Shown here in pieces: positions 1-48,987 of a DNA stretch of 64,000 bases. Source of the DNA: Flavobacterium agri. GTDB lineage: Bacteria > Bacteroidota > Bacteroidia > Flavobacteriales > Flavobacteriaceae. The stretch is taken from NCBI RefSeq assembly GCF_013401995.1, contig NZ_JACBJI010000003.1:248001-312000 (forward strand), given 5' to 3'. The notes under the pieces are model-generated. The model saw only the letters and a list, made by a program, of their open reading frames with translations. It made no database searches and was not told the origin of the DNA. A program made the translations under genes and the position numbers. Positions within the stretch are counted from its first letter, which is position 1. Each line of letters opens with the position of its first letter.

Positions 1-28
1 AACGAATAACGAATAACGAATAACGAAG
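1..28. repeat. Tandem 7-bp repeat, 4 units
   Basis: Four head-to-tail copies of AACGAAT (the last ends in G) open the window and stop three bases before the stop codon of the first minus-strand gene. The array may extend beyond the window edge. Short-period AT-rich arrays of this kind recur in other gaps here (45677-45700, 46067-46090, 55201-55333). Confidence 0.85.
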
Positions 29-41800: not shown

Positions 41801-43450
41801 AACGTCCACCTCAGGCAAAGGCAAAACAGTAACGGTGAACGAAGTCGTTACGAAACAATTAGTATCCGAAACGTTCTGTACGCGAACATAGATTACCTGT
41901 CCGTTTGTAGCCGTAGTATTTACACCGTAAGGATTCGCGCCGGAATTGGCGTCGGCTTGGGTGGCGTGGTACGTTACAAGGTTCAATGCAGGAGATTGCC
42001 CGTTAAGGATGCCCGCAGTCTGATTGTTGAGATTGATCGTCGCGAAATGTTGTGTCAGCGATCTTTCGCAAGTCGTGATATTTTGCGGTTGTGTGATTGT
42101 CGGACCGTTGGTTACCGAAAGCTGGAAAGGTTTCACCGTAAAACAACCCGTTGCAGGATTGTTGATGCGAACGTAAACCGTTTGGTTACCAGGACTTGAA
42201 TAGTTGGACGGAAGCGGGCTTGCGTTGTTGTTCGCATTAGCCTCCGAAGCAAAATAAGCCACGGTCGTGCCCGACGGAAGGCCAGCCGTTACGATAGGCG
42301 TATTCAACGCCAAATTGTAGGAGTAGCTGGCAGCACCGGTGTCGCACTTGTATAAAGTAGTAGGGTTAGGTGTCGTAAATTCCGGATAGAACTCGATGTT
42401 GATCGAATCGGTAGTCGCCTGGCACGAATTCGTGATAGGCGCATACGTCACGCTGTATGTTCCGGGTTGGATCACGTTGATAGACGGACCTGTAGCGCCT
42501 GGGATCATCAGGTTGTTTCTTTTCCACGAGAATGTATATTCCGCCGGATTCAAGCCAGAGCTCAAAACATAAGTCTGTCCGAAGCAGATCGCCGTGTGGT
42601 TGGCAACAGTCAGATCAAGTCCCAAAACCTGTTGACCGATGTTGAAACTGTCCGAAGCGATGAAAATAGCCGAATCCGATTCCGCATCGGTACGGTCGGC
42701 GATCACAAGCTTGATGTGGTAAGGCGTGTTCGGCGTCAAAGTCGAGCTCGCGTTCATCAAAACCGTCTGTCCGTTGAAATTGGTGGCCGAACCTGCCGCA
42801 GCCGATCCTCCGTTGAAGCTCCCGAAATACTGGGCGTTCGCCGAAGGACAAGACGAATTGTACAAAAAGTCGCGGATCGTAACCACCGAAATCGGCAAGT
42901 TCGTACTCGGAACCACGGCAAGGTTGGTCGTAACTCCCGTGTTCATGTTCGTCAGTAGGAAGGCGAACGCGTCCGAGAATTGGCATTGAAAGTTTCCGTA
43001 TTCTTCAGAAGCAAATACGAAATCGAAATTAAACTGGGGCGAAATAGGGGTGAAATCAAATTCAAGGACCGTTGCATTGGTCGAATTCATCGAGATGCCG
43101 GCTTGGGCCAAAGTAGTCTCGAGAGAAGGGTCTCCCGGCCAGTTCGCGGCACCATCGTTGAGCATGCTCGTGTTCGGGCCTACAGAATGCAAGGCGTCGC
43201 CAGTACTTAGGATCACACCTGCCTGCATCGGGAAATTAGGATTTGTGTTCTGGAAATAACCGATCCCGTTCGTCGAACCGAAATTCGTACCCGTGCTCCA
43301 CGTAATGTTGTTCGCCTCCACGCAAGGGGAATTGATCAACACGTTGTTTACGAGTTGGGGCACCGAATAGGAATTGGTGTTCACCGTGATCGACTGTGCG
43401 AATACTGGAAAAGAAAACGCAACAGTTAAAATGAGTAGGAATTTTTTCAT
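38855..43450 (-). CDS. Large secreted repeat protein with choice-of-anchor L head and T9SS type B sorting domain
   Basis: 1531 aa from ATG 43450 (MKKFLLILTVAFSFPVFAQS, signal peptide). Residues ~20-300 match the choice-of-anchor L domain (TGTNFGSTNGIGYF, FVFASEEYGNFQC). Then come Ig-like/SprB-type segments. About nine tandem ~70-aa repeats follow with consensus C-x-x-Y-x-LPxLxxGxYYT-GPGGTG-xxLxAG-xxIT-xTQTIYIY-...-C-T-x-x-x-SFxVTI (coded by ~39885-41815). The C-terminus (HFFTPNGDGANDTWNI.. IFDRYGKLL) is the gliding-associated type B sorting domain, so the product is exported by T9SS and shown on or released from the cell surface. A surface adhesin or matrix role is inferred. Conserved Cys pairs in each repeat suggest disulphides. 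It ends in a strong terminator. Confidence 0.93.
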   Translation of the reverse strand: MKKFLLILTVAFSFPVFAQSITVNTNSYSVPQLVNNVLINSPCVEANNITWSTGTNFGSTNGIGYFQNTNPNFPMQAGVILSTGDALHSVGPNTSMLNDGAANWPGDPSLETTLAQAGISMNSTNATVLEFDFTPISPQFNFDFVFASEEYGNFQCQFSDAFAFLLTNMNTGVTTNLAVVPSTNLPISVVTIRDFLYNSSCPSANAQYFGSFNGGSAAAGSATNFNGQTVLMNASSTLTPNTPYHIKLVIADRTDAESDSAIFIASDSFNIGQQVLGLDLTVANHTAICFGQTYVLSSGLNPAEYTFSWKRNNLMIPGATGPSINVIQPGTYSVTYAPITNSCQATTDSINIEFYPEFTTPNPTTLYKCDTGAASYSYNLALNTPIVTAGLPSGTTVAYFASEANANNNASPLPSNYSSPGNQTVYVRINNPATGCFTVKPFQLSVTNGPTITQPQNITTCERSLTQHFATINLNNQTAGILNGQSPALNLVTYHATQADANSGANPYGVNTTATNGQVIYVRVQNVSDTNCFVTTSFTVTVLPLPEVDVLEDVIVCENYVLPALTNGNYFTAPGGTGDPLFAGDVITETQTIYIFNQPGGPPNCSSASNFKVTIVDPLTMSPGDGTYCGSYTVGTPEYGAFFTQPGGQGSPIPAGTQITSSQTLYYYFITEVAPFCVIDTDFDVTIVNNVNVGTFDNVFNCTSYTLPTLAVGNYYTQPGGQGATVAAGTVVTATTTYYVFAQTGTAEFSCTSEDSFTVFIGMDVPSDVNQCAGYPLPALPIGNYYTGPGGTGTLLPAGTVIATPQTVYIYVAGGTDCDPDRHFNLNISQPPIDSVPNQSVCGGFVLPALTNGEYFTGSGGTGDQLSAGDLITTTQTIYIYKQLNASCSNQNSFTVTINPAPPIDSRSNIDVCNSYTLTPLGVGNYYTGPGGTGTMLPAGTVITETQVLYIYAQSTQAPFCTAENSFEISIFSIEADSPAPVTACDSYVLQPLTVGNYFKNSGGPTNNAEGDALFAGNVITASTTLYIYTESGERINCIDENQFQITINNSPQLASIANQFVCNSYELPVLAQGDYYTGPNKTGTQLHAGDILTTSQTVYVYAETGTTPNCTDEVSFNLTIFNVDELPAVTTCESYTLPALTIGSYYTGPGGTGNHLNAGAHITQTATIYVYAHSPFNPSCTDESSFVVTIVPEPVANAVPAATATTCDEDGTNDGLTAFDLSALTATVLGSQTGSEFSVTYHESMSDATSALNPVTSTSLPNVFVRVVNSLAPNCFDVRAIALHVNKLPEPTPQGGIICFDSETQTLLNPFVIHSGLSASTHTFQWLNEAGDVVGTSSNYTAVLPGDYTVIAVSNATGCISMPVTVTVQGSEPAVVTYQTSPDFSDNMSITITAVGTGDYEYQLDEGAWQDSNVFENVTSGTHIVTVRDKNGCGTAQTTALVVNYPHFFTPNGDGANDTWNIKDLKAQLNSKISIFDRYGKLLTQITPNGQGWDGTYNGKVMPSTDYWFTVNYTEGGKDKEFRAHFSMKR
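39885..41815 (-). repeat. Nine tandem ~210-bp coding repeats in the T9SS protein
   Basis: Copies of a ~70-codon unit with near-invariant YYTGPGGTG and AGxxITxTQTIYIY blocks can be counted by eye. They differ in the spacer lengths and in the GPGGTG variants (GPNKTG, SGGPTNN, QPGGQG). Nearly identical short DNA words between units make the region prone to recombination and to assembly collapse. Confidence 0.8.
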
Positions 43451-43861
43451 AACATAAAGCTTTAGGGAAGCTGCCGAATGTTTTTTATTTGAATTGTTTT
43501 GACACTGCAAAGATTACCTCAAACATCGATTAAACGCAAATAAAGTCGATGAAATGCACGATTTTGATATATACATTGGATATTTTCCTACAATTTTACT
43601 TTTCGAAAACCTTTTCGTATTTTTTTACCGAACTGCCTGAATACGTGATGGAAAAGATCTTTTTGTCTGTTTTTCGTCCGTTGTGAGAAAAAGTCAGGCA
43701 CACGCGTTCATGCGAAATGCCGTCAACGTATTTTTTATCACGGAATGCGACTTTTTTAAGATTGGTATCGATGACAGGTCTTTTAATCGACGAACTGCAC
43801 TTCTCTGCAAGATTGTCCGTCGCGATTTTAGTCGAGCTTTATTCCGAACCGATAATTTACC
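43451..43861. other. Gap between the T9SS gene and argS
   Basis: About 410 bp with divergent promoters presumed. The argS frame stays open upstream to 43683, but the extra 70 codons lack an RBS-linked start, contain no synthetase signature and would lengthen ArgS abnormally. The gap has scattered T-runs (43560-43640) and no gene or structured repeat that I can support. Confidence 0.6.
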
Positions 43862-43869
43862 TATCTTTG
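43862..43869 (+). promoter_or_regulatory. Bacteroidota -7 promoter element for argS
   Basis: TATCTTTG matches TAnnTTTG exactly, 23 bp before the chosen ATG at 43893. This supports the shorter start over the longer open frame from 43683. Confidence 0.65.
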
Positions 43870-43892
43870 CACGCCTAAAAAACACAGTAAAA

Positions 43893-45671
43893 ATGACACC
43901 AAACGAAATCCTTTTGCCAGCCGTGCAGGCAGCCGTGAGCGAGCTGTACGGAGTTGCCGTCGAACACTTTGAGTTCCAGGCCACGCGACGCGATTTCGAA
44001 GGTGACGTCACGCTCGTCGTTTTTCCGCTTTTAAAGCAAATCAAAGGCAATCCGGCCCAAATCGGGAATGCGATCGGTGAATATTTGAAAAACAATGTTG
44101 CTCAAGTCAAGGCGTTCAACGTCGTACAAGGCTTTTTGAACATCGTGATCTCCGATGGTTTCTACCTCGACTTTTTCGCTAAAGTGAAAGACGACGCCAG
44201 ATTCGGTTTCGTAAGCGCTTCCGCGGATGGGAAAGCCGTAATGGTCGAATATTCGTCCCCGAACACGAACAAACCGCTTCACCTGGGCCACGTCAGGAAC
44301 AACCTTCTCGGATATTCCGTAGCCGAAATCCTCAAAGCCGCCGGAAACAAAGTCTACAAGACCCAAATCATCAACGACAGGGGAATCCATATCTGCAAAT
44401 CGATGCTCGCGTGGGATAAATTCGGAAATGCCGAAACACCCGAAATGTCAGGATTGAAAGGCGATAAGCTTGTCGGTAAATATTACGTCGAGTTCGACAA
44501 GGAATACAAAAAGCAGATCGATGCGCTCAAGTCTCAAGGAAAATCGGAAGACGAAGCCAAAAAACAAGCCCCGATTCTTCTCGAAGCTCAAAGCATGCTG
44601 CGCGACTGGGAAGCCGGAAAACCCGAAGTCATGGCGCTTTGGCAAAAAATGAACCAATGGGTTTACGACGGTTTCGGCGAGACGTATAAAAGGCTTGGCG
44701 TCGATTTCGACAAATATTACTACGAATCCAACACCTATCTTTTGGGTAAGGAAGTCGTGCAACTCGGTCTCGAGAAAGGCGTTTTCGTAAAAGACCCAGA
44801 CGGTTCGGTCTGGATCGATCTCACCGAAGACGGACTCGACCGCAAAATCGTATTGCGTTCAGACGGAACCGCGGTTTATATGACGCAAGACATCGGAACC
44901 GCAATCCAGCGTGTCAAAGATTTCCCGGACGTAGGCGGAATGGTGTACACCGTAGGAAACGAGCAGGATTACCATTTCAAGGTGTTGTTCCTGATCCTTA
45001 AAAAACTCGGTTTCGATTGGGCCGACAATCTCTATCATTTGTCATACGGAATGGTCGATTTGCCTTCGGGAAAAATGAAAAGCCGCGAAGGAACGGTCGT
45101 CGACGCCGACGATTTGATGGACGACATGAGCGAAACCGCCCAAAAAATATCCGAAGAACTCGGAAAGCTCGACGGGTATTCCGATGAAGAAAAAAAACGT
45201 CTTTATACGATTATCGGGCTCGGCGCACTCAAATATTACATCCTAAAAGTAGATCCGAAGAAACGCATCCTGTTCAATCCCGAGGAATCTGTAGATTTCG
45301 CGGGCAACACAGGTCCGTTTATCCAATACACGTATGCGCGTATCCGTTCGATCTTGAGAAAAGCAGATTTCGATTATTCTCGACCGATCACTACGATCGA
45401 TCTGCACGAAAAGGAAAAGGAATTGCTCAAGCTCGTCTCGACTTTCCCGTCCGTGATCCAGGAAGCGGCCCAAAACCACAGCCCGGCGTTGGTCGCGAAT
45501 TTCACGTACGATCTGGTCAAGGAATACAATTCGTTTTATCAGGTCGTCCCGATTTTGGGTGCTGAAAACGAAAACGAAAAAGTCTTCCGTACGCAATTGT
45601 CGAAAAAAGTCGCCGATACGATCGAAGCAGGTTTTGGATTGTTGGGAATTGCCGTTCCTGAAAGAATGTAA
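43893..45671 (+). CDS. argS: Arginyl-tRNA synthetase
   Basis: 592 aa, the normal class I length. N-terminal Add1 domain (1-~110), then the Rossmann core with the HIGH-type motif in SSPNTNKPLHLGHVRNN (about 123-139). The KMSK-equivalent is in LPSGKMKSREGTVVDADDL (near 400). The anticodon-binding all-helical C-terminal domain ends GIAVPERM. It charges tRNA-Arg with arginine. The start at 43893 (MTPNEILLPAVQAAV) is chosen from family length and the TATCTTTG promoter at 43862. Immediately after its stop begins the inverted-repeat-bracketed cassette. Confidence 0.97.
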   Translation: MTPNEILLPAVQAAVSELYGVAVEHFEFQATRRDFEGDVTLVVFPLLKQIKGNPAQIGNAIGEYLKNNVAQVKAFNVVQGFLNIVISDGFYLDFFAKVKDDARFGFVSASADGKAVMVEYSSPNTNKPLHLGHVRNNLLGYSVAEILKAAGNKVYKTQIINDRGIHICKSMLAWDKFGNAETPEMSGLKGDKLVGKYYVEFDKEYKKQIDALKSQGKSEDEAKKQAPILLEAQSMLRDWEAGKPEVMALWQKMNQWVYDGFGETYKRLGVDFDKYYYESNTYLLGKEVVQLGLEKGVFVKDPDGSVWIDLTEDGLDRKIVLRSDGTAVYMTQDIGTAIQRVKDFPDVGGMVYTVGNEQDYHFKVLFLILKKLGFDWADNLYHLSYGMVDLPSGKMKSREGTVVDADDLMDDMSETAQKISEELGKLDGYSDEEKKRLYTIIGLGALKYYILKVDPKKRILFNPEESVDFAGNTGPFIQYTYARIRSILRKADFDYSRPITTIDLHEKEKELLKLVSTFPSVIQEAAQNHSPALVANFTYDLVKEYNSFYQVVPILGAENENEKVFRTQLSKKVADTIEAGFGLLGIAVPERM

Positions 45672-45676
45672 TTGAT

Positions 45677-46090
45677 AATTATAAATTATGAATTATGAAT
45701 AAGGGTAATGGTAATGGGAGACAATGTAGTTAGAGAAAAGAGTTTTTCTTTTGCGGTCAAAGTAGTGAAGGCTTGCAGAAAAATTTCCGATGAGAAAAAA
45801 GAGTTTGTCCTAAGCAAACAATTGATGAGATCCGGAACTTCAATAGGAGCTAACGTTCGGGAAGCGATCAATGCTCAAAGCAAAGCCGATTTTATCCATA
45901 AATTGGCAATAGCCCAAAAAGAAAGTGATGAAACTATTTACTGGTTGGAGTTGATGAAGGCTACAGATTTTATTGGTAAAACTGAGTTTGATGAATTGCA
46001 TACAGAAGCAACAGAAATCCTGCGGATCATCCGTAGCATCATTCTGTCCACGAAACGCAATTCATAATTCATAATTCATAATTTATAATT
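45677..46090. mobile_element. Candidate cassette: four-helix-bundle gene bracketed by 24-bp inverted repeats
   Basis: Left end 45677-45700 and right end 46067-46090 are exact reverse complements over 24 bp (AATTATAAATTATGAATTAT.. reading inward). The only gene inside is the four-helix-bundle ORF. The right arm overlaps that gene's stop codon and the TTG start of the next gene. No transposase is encoded, so any mobility would be in trans. See findings. Confidence 0.5.
45708..46067 (+). CDS. Four-helix-bundle protein (23S rRNA IVP / Avd-like)
   Basis: 119 aa (ATG 45708; 45714 also possible). The pattern REKSFSFAVKVVKACRKISDEKKEFVLSKQLMRSGTSIGANVREA...SKADFIHKLAIAQKESDETIYWLELM is the hallmark of the S23/IVP four-helix-bundle family. 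This family was first seen encoded inside 23S rRNA intervening sequences and includes the Avd accessory of diversity-generating retroelements. Members bind nucleic acid through a basic surface; the cellular role is unclear. No reverse transcriptase is in this window. It sits inside the 24-bp inverted-repeat bracket, on its own. Confidence 0.9.
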   Translation: MVMGDNVVREKSFSFAVKVVKACRKISDEKKEFVLSKQLMRSGTSIGANVREAINAQSKADFIHKLAIAQKESDETIYWLELMKATDFIGKTEFDELHTEATEILRIIRSIILSTKRNS

Positions 46091-47573
46091 GGAAAATTCT
46101 AAATCGTATTTCTTTTCCTCCTTCCTGATTGTTTTGCTATCAGCCGTTTTCTTTTTAGGAATAAAAAGAGTACTTCCAAACAAAATCTTTTCCGATAAAG
46201 CCGGAACGACCAAAAACGTTTTGATCGATTCGATGTTGATCGACGCATTCGAAGAAGAAAAGAAACAAGCCGCGCTCGATTCGCTTAAAGGCGATGCCGA
46301 TGCGCAAGACGGAGAAGGGATGTCGAACCAGCCTGTCGTGTATTATCCGACCGACGGCATCCAATTTCCCGAAGAAACATTCGAAAATTACAAAGGTGAC
46401 CAATACCTGATCTCGTTTTTCGAAAAGCTGTACCAACTCGAAACCACCGGAAAAGGCAACGTGCGCATCGCGTATTACGGCGATTCGATGACCGACGGCG
46501 ACATGATCGTACAGGATTTGCGTACATCGATGCAGGAGCAATTCGGCGGGCGAGGCGTAGGTTTCGTGCCGATCACGTCCGAATCCGCTGCGTCGCGGAA
46601 TTCGATCAAACACGAATATTCAGGCAACTGGAAATCCCAGTCGTATCTGAACGTGAAATGGCCAAAACGCTCTTTCGGCGTAAACGGACACGTGTTTTTC
46701 GCCAACGATACGGCGCGTACCGAATGGGTGAAATTCAAGACCGGAAAAGGCAAATTCAACCAGGAACTCGACAATCCGACGGTTTTCTTCGGAAGTTCGG
46801 GCAATAAGAAAGGCGTCGTCGCTTACGTTTCGGGCAAAGACACGATCCGCAAGAAAATGTCGACTTCGGCCACTTTGAACACGATCACGCTTTCAAACGG
46901 CGCGCTCAAAGGCATTAAGGTCGATTTCCATCAAGCCGATTCTATTCCGGTTTACGGATTCAATTTCGACGATGGGAAAGGCGTCCATGTCGATAATTTC
47001 TCGCAGAGAGGAAATTCAGGCATCCCGATCTCTAAATTCAACGTGCCTTTGATGAACGCGTTCCAGGACAAGCTCGGATACGACCTTATCGTGCTGCATT
47101 ACGGAACCAACGTGCTCAATTACGGCACGCTCGACTACAAATGGTACGAGCGCGCGATGACCAAAACCGTGAACAAAATTCACGAATGCTTTCCGGGAGC
47201 GGCCGTCTTGATTATTTCCACAGCCGACAAAGCCACGAAATACGATCTTGAAATGCGCACCGATTCGGCCGTAGTTCCGTTGACGAAAGCACAGAAACGA
47301 TACGCGCTCAACACCAAATCGGGATTCGTGAACCTGTACCAGCTCATGGGCGGAAACGGATCGATGGTCAAATGGGTAGAAGAAGAACCCGCGATGGCCG
47401 GAAAAGATTACACACACCCGAATTTCAAAGGTGCCAAACGTTTCGCAAGCCTGATTTACGGACAGATCAAACAAGGATACGAACAGTTCAAAAAACTGCG
47501 CGCCGATAAAAAACCTGTGGCTTCCCCGACCGACAGCCTCAAACGAAAAACCGATTCATTAGATGCGAATTAG
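46089..47573 (+). CDS. SGNH/GDSL-type hydrolase or acyltransferase, membrane-anchored
   Basis: 494 aa. The only usable start is a TTG at 46089 inside the right inverted repeat; a stop codon (TAA) lies directly before it and no ATG occurs in the first ~30 codons. The N-terminus is a signal anchor (SFLIVLLSAVFFLGI, about 11-25). The SGNH block I is IAYYGDSMTDGD (Ser133). Block V is DYTHPNFKG near residue 437, giving the catalytic Asp/His. The length exceeds simple GDSL esterases and resembles AlgX/PatB-type O-acyltransferases. It overlaps the next gene by 11 bp, so the two are translationally coupled. Confidence 0.88.
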   Translation: MENSKSYFFSSFLIVLLSAVFFLGIKRVLPNKIFSDKAGTTKNVLIDSMLIDAFEEEKKQAALDSLKGDADAQDGEGMSNQPVVYYPTDGIQFPEETFENYKGDQYLISFFEKLYQLETTGKGNVRIAYYGDSMTDGDMIVQDLRTSMQEQFGGRGVGFVPITSESAASRNSIKHEYSGNWKSQSYLNVKWPKRSFGVNGHVFFANDTARTEWVKFKTGKGKFNQELDNPTVFFGSSGNKKGVVAYVSGKDTIRKKMSTSATLNTITLSNGALKGIKVDFHQADSIPVYGFNFDDGKGVHVDNFSQRGNSGIPISKFNVPLMNAFQDKLGYDLIVLHYGTNVLNYGTLDYKWYERAMTKTVNKIHECFPGAAVLIISTADKATKYDLEMRTDSAVVPLTKAQKRYALNTKSGFVNLYQLMGGNGSMVKWVEEEPAMAGKDYTHPNFKGAKRFASLIYGQIKQGYEQFKKLRADKKPVASPTDSLKRKTDSLDAN

Positions 47574-48987
47574 ATTCCTGCTCATTCTTTTGTTCATGGG
47601 CAGCTTTGAGTTGTTTGCCCAGGACGATTCCACGGCGGTAGCGGTCGATTCGGCCTTTGTCGATGCCGATACGCTCGAAGTGCCGATTCCCGACAACCGT
47701 TTCCAGAACACGAATTCCATAGCGTCTTTTTATAAAAAGCTCGCCGATCTGGAGTCGAAGCGCAACCGCAAGATCAATATCGTGCACATTGGCGATTCGC
47801 ACATACAGGCCGATTTGTTTTCGCACCGCACGCGACAGGATCTGCAGGCGGCTTTCGGCAACGGCGGCCGCGGATTCGTGTTCCCGCATCGTTTGGCCGG
47901 CACGAACGGCTCGTCCGATTACAAATTCACGTCGAACGTAAAATGGAGCGGCTGGCGTAACATCAATTCGGTAAATCCCGATTTCCCTGTTGGTTTGAGC
48001 GGTATCGGATTGACCACGAACGCGCGTGAATTCGCGATTGAGTTCGATGCGAAAGTTGCGGATAACGCCTTCAACCTGATCCGTGTGATCACGCCTCAGA
48101 ATCGTCCGTTGTTCGATGTGGCGACCGCGAAAAAGACGATCGTGATGGAATCGAACGTGCCCAAAAAAATCACGCACCGCATCAAGAACGGCGAAGTTTT
48201 GGGATCGATCGCGAACAAATACGACATTTCGATTTCGGCCCTTAAAAAAGAGAACGGATTGAAGTCGGACCGCATCCGCGCAGGCAAAACCTTGAAAATC
48301 CCGACCAACGAAAGAGAACCGAAGAAAATATATCGTTCCGAATTCTTGCCGTTGCCGATGCAGGAAGACGAGCTTTCGCATTACTATCGATCCGAAAAAC
48401 CGCTCGAACAGATTTACCTGATTCCGTCCGAAGGCGCTTTCGACGTGGCTTTGAACGGTGTCGTGCTCGAAAACAACCTTCCGGGAATCATTTATCATTC
48501 GATAGGCGTGAACGGATCGAAGTTTTCGGATTACAATAAATATCCTTCGTTCTTTTCCGAACTCAAAGCATTGAATCCGGACTTGATCATCCTATCGCTG
48601 GGCACGAACGAGTCGTTCGACAAAATGTCCGGAGAGGCGTATATCGCGCAAATGGATCAGTTCATCGCGAGCCTCAAAAAAGAAAACCCGAATGTCGATA
48701 TTCTGGTGTTGACGCCGCCGCCCTCGTTGTTCAGAAGGCGTTATCCGAATACGTTCGCTGCCGATTACGCGCAGAAAATCATTAACGGTGCCGATTCGAA
48801 AAACTATACCGCCTGGGATTTGTATTCCCAACTCGGCGGATTGTACGGAGTAGGCCGCAACGCCAAGAAAGGCATCATCGGAGGCGATCGCGTACACTAC
48901 ACGCACGAAGGTTATTACAAAATGGGGAAATTGTTATCGGAAGCAATTTTGAAAGGATATCAGGATTTTAAGGCGGCTGGCAAATGA
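47563..48987 (+). CDS. SGNH/GDSL protein with LysM domain
   Basis: 474 aa. Signal peptide (1-20, ELFAQD). SGNH block I IVHIGDSHIQAD gives Ser79. A LysM domain is inserted at about 200-250 (THRIKNGEVLGSIANKYDIS.. RIRAGKTLKIP). The terminal block DRVHYTHEGYYKMG (near 445) supplies Asp and His. LysM binds GlcNAc-containing glycans such as peptidoglycan, so the enzyme is expected to act on the cell wall or a linked glycan. It overlaps the first SGNH gene by 11 bp and the MBOAT gene by 4 bp (ATGA), forming a tight operon. Confidence 0.9.
   Translation: MRIRFLLILLFMGSFELFAQDDSTAVAVDSAFVDADTLEVPIPDNRFQNTNSIASFYKKLADLESKRNRKINIVHIGDSHIQADLFSHRTRQDLQAAFGNGGRGFVFPHRLAGTNGSSDYKFTSNVKWSGWRNINSVNPDFPVGLSGIGLTTNAREFAIEFDAKVADNAFNLIRVITPQNRPLFDVATAKKTIVMESNVPKKITHRIKNGEVLGSIANKYDISISALKKENGLKSDRIRAGKTLKIPTNEREPKKIYRSEFLPLPMQEDELSHYYRSEKPLEQIYLIPSEGAFDVALNGVVLENNLPGIIYHSIGVNGSKFSDYNKYPSFFSELKALNPDLIILSLGTNESFDKMSGEAYIAQMDQFIASLKKENPNVDILVLTPPPSLFRRRYPNTFAADYAQKIINGADSKNYTAWDLYSQLGGLYGVGRNAKKGIIGGDRVHYTHEGYYKMGKLLSEAILKGYQDFKAAGK

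Follow-up and report, generated by a model that had tools for sequence, protein, structure and literature searches.

Intervening sequences, REPINs and heptameric repeats

S23/IVP genes are long known from split 23S rRNA, and 23S rRNA IVSs with an S23p/IVP gene are also found in Leptospira. The rRNA IVS of Coxiella burnetii forms a 28-bp stem that harbors the S23p gene, heptamers of the sequence GACAGAT precede this gene, and the IVS is excised by RNase III in vitro (PMC4990558, accessible sections). The same sections argue that the RNA matters more than S23p, whose gene is decaying, which counts against the cassette reading put forward below. They also describe a Xanthomonas member of the IVP family as a homopentamer. 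Avd of diversity-generating retroelements is a four-helix bundle that is held homologous to PF05635 in the accessible part of PMC10053308.

REPIN/RAYT systems, as outlined in the accessible text of PMC3116915, combine a repeat-flanked gene with dispersed inverted doublets that form intergenic hairpins, and one repeat class belongs to each gene. The RAYT protein is Y1 transposase-like.

The GGGAATC heptamers of Xanthomonas and the GGGGA(C/T)T heptamers of Nostoc have been read as G-quadruplex elements (PMC4692102, accessible text). This text reports generally no tie of the heptamers to mobile elements and counts 70 and 75 convergent pairs in two species. Between two species, 83% of the heptamer arrays keep their context according to this text, and their surroundings are more stable than controls. 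TAACTGA heptamers occur in Beggiatoaceae, Cyanobacteria, and Bacteroidetes, and the abstract of that study states that no transfer mechanism is evident (PMC4679880, accessible text). The terms S23, XCC0516, and four helix are absent from the main text of PMC4692102, and S23, intervening, and four helix are absent from that of PMC4679880. In the literature covered, with preprints and most subscription journals outside its scope, no link between IVP genes and heptamer arrays was visible beyond the Coxiella IVS paper.

The argS-GDSL unit and its empty sites

The locus described here lies in the window, the whole stretch of 64,000 nucleotides from Flavobacterium agri that was analysed. It is composed of the following features.

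43896..45671, + strand: argS, upstream and co-directional, flank of the insertion site, with Arg-tRNA synthetase domains (start codon picked by similarity)
45677..45700, + strand: left arm, heptamer array AATTATA-AATTATG-AATTATG-AAT, perfectly matching the right arm
45708..46067, + strand: S23/IVP four-helix-bundle gene, 119 aa, in the hairpin loop (PF05635, TIGR02436, 2rld_A 125 bits)
46067..46090, + strand: right arm, the inverted copy of the left arm
46089..47573, + strand: GDSL-lipase-like gene, downstream and co-directional, with LysM-GDSL and MBOAT genes behind it

The unit (45677-46090, 414 bp) carries the IVP gene between perfect 24-bp inverted repeats. The arms are complementary at 24/24 positions, and the extended pairing reaches 87% over 31 nt, with the imperfect pairing of the left arm beginning at 45670. 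A first-pass annotation had tentatively taken the unit for a minimal mobile cassette, an S23/Avd-family four-helix-bundle gene between exact 24-bp inverted repeats. The exact repeats and the family assignment are confirmed, the latter by matches to PF05635 (98.3 bits, cut-off 33.8) and TIGR02436 (111.1 bits, cut-off 24). The repeat ends, which had been described as ATAATTC-type, are inverted and built from short words as stated, but they are tandem heptamer arrays and not ordinary terminal repeats. The IVP gene was thought to stand alone between the arms. It does lie in the loop, but the right period-7 array (46059-46090) reaches from the final codons of the IVP gene into the GDSL gene, whose start is given as a TTG at 46089. 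The profile search places argS on one side and the GDSL gene followed by LysM-GDSL and MBOAT genes on the other. The unit carries no transposase gene, as had been noted, and no catalytic domain was found.

In the RNA fold of the unit the arms are paired (−107.8 kcal/mol, z −4.75 versus 100 shuffles). No Rfam family reached its curated threshold in 43000-48000, and a known RNA family was rejected for the unit, the only match being a sub-threshold one to SNORD18 (E 0.11). The 16-mer AATTATGAATTATGAA (at most 2 mismatches) occurs five times in the window, all at the IVP unit, compared to 0.11 occurrences expected from shuffles.

Like the rRNA IVS, the unit measures about 0.4 kb and has inverted ends that form a stem around an IVP-family gene, and the Coxiella IVS also has gene-adjacent heptamers (PMC4990558, accessible sections). 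It differs from the 23S rRNA IVS by its position in a protein-operon spacer (argS/GDSL) outside of 23S rRNA. Compared to the Coxiella IVS, both arms are heptamer arrays, and gene-less hairpins are found elsewhere in the genomes. The repeat-flanked gene is shared with REPIN/RAYT systems, and in Luteimonas and Xanthomonas inverted doublets of the arm repeat are likewise scattered over the genome. The flanked gene, however, encodes PF05635 and not Y1, so the unit is not a member of the REPIN/RAYT systems; the IVP, a four-helix bundle with no known catalytic site, is unrelated to it, and its repeats are 7-bp tandem arrays. The TAACTGA repeats are similar in being intergenic 7-bp tandem arrays with a patchy distribution over phyla, but in the accessible text of PMC4679880 they are almost all direct (one inverted), whereas the IVP arms are inverted. 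The window IVP is unlike Avd in that no reverse transcriptase was found among the five neighboring proteins scanned (including argS, GDSL, LysM-GDSL, and MBOAT).

Seven PF05635 matches are present in the F. agri genome (3.98 Mb, 39 contigs). All seven genes are bracketed by inverted arrays of mostly 7-8-bp words, and each has its own word: GCTTTAG-like, AGACACGCTTTGCTTT, AGATAATAGACG, AATTATG (window copy), GTGATTG, AATTTGG, and GAATAAC for elements L001 to L007. The best inverted scores are, in this order, 13, 14, 18, 24, 13, 19, and 19. The first four copies are located between groES and groEL, upstream of a pseudouridine-synthase-like gene, between thiolase and acyl-CoA dehydrogenase genes, and between argS and GDSL. 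The last three are located between kdpA and kdpB, sufB and sufC, and dut and a nucleotidyltransferase gene. These gene names were read from the flanking translations, with a profile search for argS and GDSL only. One copy, that at kdpAB, is antisense; the orientation of the groES-groEL copy was scored as mixed, probably because an antisense frame is longer than the short groES. Window positions 1-27 hold a GAATAAC heptamer array, by eye the same word as in the arms of L007.

The exact 16-mer of the window arm word occurs 20 times in the genome, at eight places including the unit, and its reversed control occurs 0 times. At each of the seven further places it is found on one strand only, and the hairpins in the sampled stretches of the genome consist of words other than that of the window. 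The idea that the same repeat would flank other copies failed, as the words are mostly private to each copy.

Site occupancy was compared among relatives. A GDSL match was obtained in 170/348 same-genus genomes, and the best 30 of these 170 loci, the F. agri locus included, were read. The argS-GDSL adjacency is kept by 21 of the other 29 loci, and in all 21 the IVP gene is absent from the spacer, which measures 17-117 bp. Presence at the same site in all relatives, with repeats unassociated with other copies, had been named as the outcome that would speak against a cassette. The unit is instead absent in 21/21 relatives with this adjacency, and most other sampled copies are repeat-ended. By eye, short words resembling ATAATTC are present in some of the IVP-less spacers, and some have inverted heptamer hairpins that lack a gene and use different words (L156, L159, L162). 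In G027:C17, G048:C136, G074:C1, and G102:C2 the argS match is split although a single frame, 626-819 aa long, runs open across it, an observation that points to in-frame insertions within argS.

G288, the closest genome by GDSL protein (84%, among the best 30 of 170 loci), has eight IVP genes and shares three of the seven F. agri IVP sites. The site of its element L191 corresponds to an IVP-less spacer of ~98 bp in F. agri. Conversely, the L007 site of F. agri is an IVP-less spacer of 87 bp in G261, 161 bp in G125, and 222 bp in G288, and another gene is present there in G332. In G125 and G288 this spacer holds gene-less hairpins, whose words resemble, by eye, those of L188 and L189, elements of these two genomes. 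The L003 site measures 18 bp in G332 and 37 bp in G261; in G125 and G288 this thiolase-acyl-CoA dehydrogenase spacer is occupied by repeats of other kinds, palindromic or tandem (L345 2669-2824 in G125, L346 247-833 in G288). Upstream of the L003 element, a stretch (L003:168-224) has several matches scattered through G288 and G332 and represents another repeat family.

No target-site duplication was demonstrated, and the examined empty sites are too diverged to define a junction. The first-pass reading was a plausible guess that is partly supported: the empty sites speak for a mobile cassette, but movement is deduced from occupancy. A common terminal sequence is absent among the seven F. agri elements and most genus elements. 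As common ends and a demonstrated duplication are both lacking, the unit is not filed as a transposon.

A conventional non-autonomous transposon, in which the arms are terminal repeats for a transposase encoded elsewhere, e.g., Y1 (IS200/RAYT), and the IVP is a passenger, would fit the empty sites, the inverted ends, and the gene-less relatives, and PF01797 (Y1) is present in 7/10 genomes searched. This reading is nevertheless very unlikely: the ends are 7-bp arrays that vary between elements, which a single transposase would hardly recognise, and F. agri (0 matches), G261, and G290 have no PF01797 match at E ≤ 0.001. A Y1 transposase as a general helper is unlikely because these three genomes of the ten lack a match.

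Inverted arrays across the IVP family

The IVP family is present in 60/61 same-genus genomes, with 1 to 16 copies where present. An upstream/downstream inverted score of at least 12 was reached by 61/76 genus loci and by 39/760 mismatched flanks (p 6e-36); the 76 loci are a non-random set that consists of the seven F. agri loci, the top-scoring locus from each of 29 genomes, and 40 loci hand-chosen among the matches listed. In stretches of three genomes of the genus, ordinary genes reached this score in 22/602 cases (2/127 for those of at most 160 aa), with a maximum of 21, compared to 24 for the window unit. Direct repeats were rejected as ends, since flank scores were near background at most of 36 loci, with few exceptions, e.g., L031.

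The enrichment near IVP genes is confined to periods 7-8 and their multiples. The mean at lag 7 near genus IVP genes is 17.05, compared to 8.11 in shuffled sequence and 7.42 in the far flanks. Lag 14 reaches 14.5, and lags 8, 15, and 16 are lower, at about 10 to 11.

The arrays are also found outside of the genus. From 25 tblastn plasmid records, 17 loci were analysed, which belong to Cyanobacteriota, Spirochaetota, Chloroflexota, Bacillota, and Bacteroidota. Each of these loci reaches the score of 12 (range 12 to 41, 17/17); the arms are perfect in three of them, over 39, 35, and 32 bp, and mismatched pairs have a median score of 8 to 10. A mismatched partner outscored the true one in 4/17 rows (L129, L130, L132, L141), mostly with a related word. 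A diverse set was composed of the best 80 loci of 582 relatives in named genomes, with the aligned part of Xanthomonas XCC0516 (2gsc_A) as query. In this set 57/80 loci and 32/800 mismatched pairs score at least 12, and the positive loci span about fourteen phylum-level groups, with record titles, including those of MAGs, taken as given. The expectation that other IVP copies are flanked by inverted repeats is therefore borne out for most of the copies sampled. Scores below 12, which count against the cassette reading, were obtained for 15/76 genus and 23/80 diverse loci, and no arrays were found at the single archaeal-labelled locus or the Gemmatimonadota locus among these best 80 of 582.

In the genus, 65/76 IVP genes are co-directional with both neighbors, and they therefore probably ride on host transcripts; on plasmids this applies to 10/17. 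Two plasmid cassettes, L130 (Anabaena cylindrica PCC 7122) and L135 (Nostoc sp. TCL26-01), are inserted antisense between the cas2 and cas1 genes. DUF1156 and Swt1-HEPN genes enclose two others, and one lies between genes of restriction subunits S and R; the elements L140-L143 have genes of defence-like operons on either side. The 23S rRNA IVP is named in a figure legend on CRISPR-associated domains in the accessible part of PMC10910872.

Arm words, gene-less hairpins and a proposed mechanism

At the L002 site, which is shared between species, the IVP proteins are 59-67% identical, and the arms are unlike: AGACACGCTTTGCTTT-like in F. agri, AGATTGACAGATTTC in G288, and TTAGACTTC in G261. The arms pair at 28/28 positions in G288 (L179) and at 11/11 only in G261 (L178), where the right arm has a mosaic structure, one part of it resembling the F. 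agri word. Both arms have changed together at this site; that they differ and yet pair speaks for a pairing role or a joint replacement. At the other two sites shared with G288, one word type is found in both species.

An arm pair scoring at least 13 is present in 134/194 elements. Near-identical IVPs (bit ratio of at least 0.7) at non-homologous sites share the word in 7/20 pairs, compared to ~1% at low similarity; these 20 pairs are not independent, having members in common, and may include orthologous sites whose flanks have diverged beyond recognition by BLAST. A word that is fixed by the protein was rejected beyond close relatives (Spearman 0.06 over 8660 pairs, clear only at a bit ratio of at least 0.7). 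In the Nostoc element L136, both arms contain a GCTCCGCTAACG-like sequence, which we take to be another dispersed cyanobacterial repeat.

Two arm words were followed through whole genomes, and both are dispersed. GGGAATC or GGGATTC arms occur in 8/9 Xanthomonadales loci among the best 80 of 582 (Xanthomonas, Luteimonas salinisoli, Dyella, Rhodanobacter, and Dokdonella; the exception is Luteimonas cucumeris), and this arm word is the Xanthomonas heptamer of the accessible text of PMC4692102. The doubled word GGGAATCGGGAATC was counted 188 times in X. arboricola (overlaps counted), 140 times in Luteimonas, 19 times in Dokdonella, 4 times in Dyella, and 0 times in 8 other IVP-bearing genomes. Of the planctomycete arm word GTGGACRGTGGACR, 279 occurrences were counted in the cognate genome, and none of 11 other genomes has more than 6. 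Array pairs less than 200 bp apart are convergent in 10/10 cases among the Luteimonas places listed of the 140, where long runs were entered as first and last place. Gene-less hairpins have the same ends as the gene-bearing elements: in Luteimonas, Xanthomonas, and Dokdonella, the inner motif of the gene-bearing element recurs at 19/28 inner edges of gene-less arrays versus 1/28 outer edges, with the motif picked after viewing the arrays and the gene-less pairs chosen by eye among the places listed. The Xanthomonadales IVP stays at a single site, accB-accC (by eye), and together with the 83% conservation of array context (PMC4692102, accessible text) this indicates that movement is slow there.

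The co-changed arms at the L002 site could also reflect an RNA-processing insulator. Selection would then keep the arms paired and isolate the IVP frame in a polycistronic mRNA, and the IVP would be an ordinary, mostly vertical host gene with immobile arms. The strong sense orientation in the genus, the three sites shared with G288, and the stability of the stem agree with this. We consider it rather unlikely, as immobile arms fit poorly with the empty argS-GDSL, L191, L007, and L003 sites and with the occurrence of the same IVP and word at non-homologous sites. Cognate genomes also contain numerous arrays of the arm word that lack a gene, and these arrays and the inner motif that they have in common with the gene-bearing elements argue against it.

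Array number was compared with IVP gene number in stretches of 6 versus 6 same-genus genomes, with statistics that ignore kinship. Only one period-7/8 array was found in 0.92 Mb of IVP-poor genomes (0-2 IVP genes) versus 19 in 1.0 Mb of IVP-rich genomes (7-12 IVP genes), and the single IVP-poor array is in fact a 4-bp repeat, as is one of the 19. Periods 5, 6, 9, 10, and 11 gave 3 arrays versus 4. The one IVP-free genome, sampled over 400 kb, has no true heptamer array. An inverted partner lies within 250 bp for 4/19 arrays of the IVP-rich stretches. After three of the 19 had been left out as simple or AT-rich, a match at p<0.05 to an IVP element sampled in the same genome was obtained for 3/16 gene-less arrays; combined over all 16, p is 1e-4, and IVP sampling was incomplete in five of the six genomes. 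In F. agri, 0/6 gene-less arrays match a present IVP at p<0.05. That gene-less arrays are always cognate to a present IVP is thereby rejected in the genus.

The mismatch in F. agri is what would be expected if heptamer arrays arose alone by replication slippage and inversion, and IVP genes preferred to insert into the loops of such hairpins. Array lengths vary freely, and gene-less hairpins lie in the same spacers of relatives, as this explanation would have it. It is, however, quite improbable, given that the arrays are nearly missing from the sampled stretches of IVP-poor genomes, that the enrichment near IVP genes appears only at periods 7-8 and multiples, and that the arm word is the genome-wide word in Xanthomonas, Luteimonas, and a planctomycete.

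The reading that we prefer, and regard as reasonably probable, is that the unit is a small selfish IVS-type cassette. It would consist of an S23/IVP gene in a hairpin loop with inverted tandem 7-bp arrays as arms, would be accompanied by gene-less satellites, and would work in a REPIN/RAYT-like manner with an unrelated protein. In the proposed mechanism, the cassette would be transcribed together with argS and the GDSL gene. Subsequently, the arms would pair in the mRNA, and RNase III may cut the stem by analogy with the Coxiella rRNA IVS in vitro. The IVP would then bind the tandem words as a homopentamer, with about one subunit per 7 nt, on RNA or single-stranded DNA. Both solved structures of the family contain five chains. 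The IVP complex and a host enzyme might finally bring the cassette and the gene-less hairpins into further spacers, a role similar to that assumed for RAYT in the spread of REPINs.

A broader proposal is offered more tentatively and may well prove wrong. IVP/S23 could act in trans in a hairpin-element system that crosses phyla and would stand as the third of its kind next to IS200 and REPIN/RAYT. Its symmetric pentameric ring would read the tandem 7-nt words of its own transcript's hairpin, with each subunit taking one word, and would spread the word genome-wide as gene-less hairpins. This could explain over-represented heptameric repeats, and the rRNA IVS would be a special insertion. If it is one system, two old puzzles would be joined, namely the purpose of S23/IVP and the origin of the intergenic heptamer repeats in genomes such as those of Xanthomonas and Nostoc, and a protein without a known catalytic site would shape intergenic DNA across many phyla. 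The period of seven would then have a reason as well. The pattern of IVP genes and arrays suggests a little-noticed class of spreading elements behind a long-puzzling bacterial repeat.
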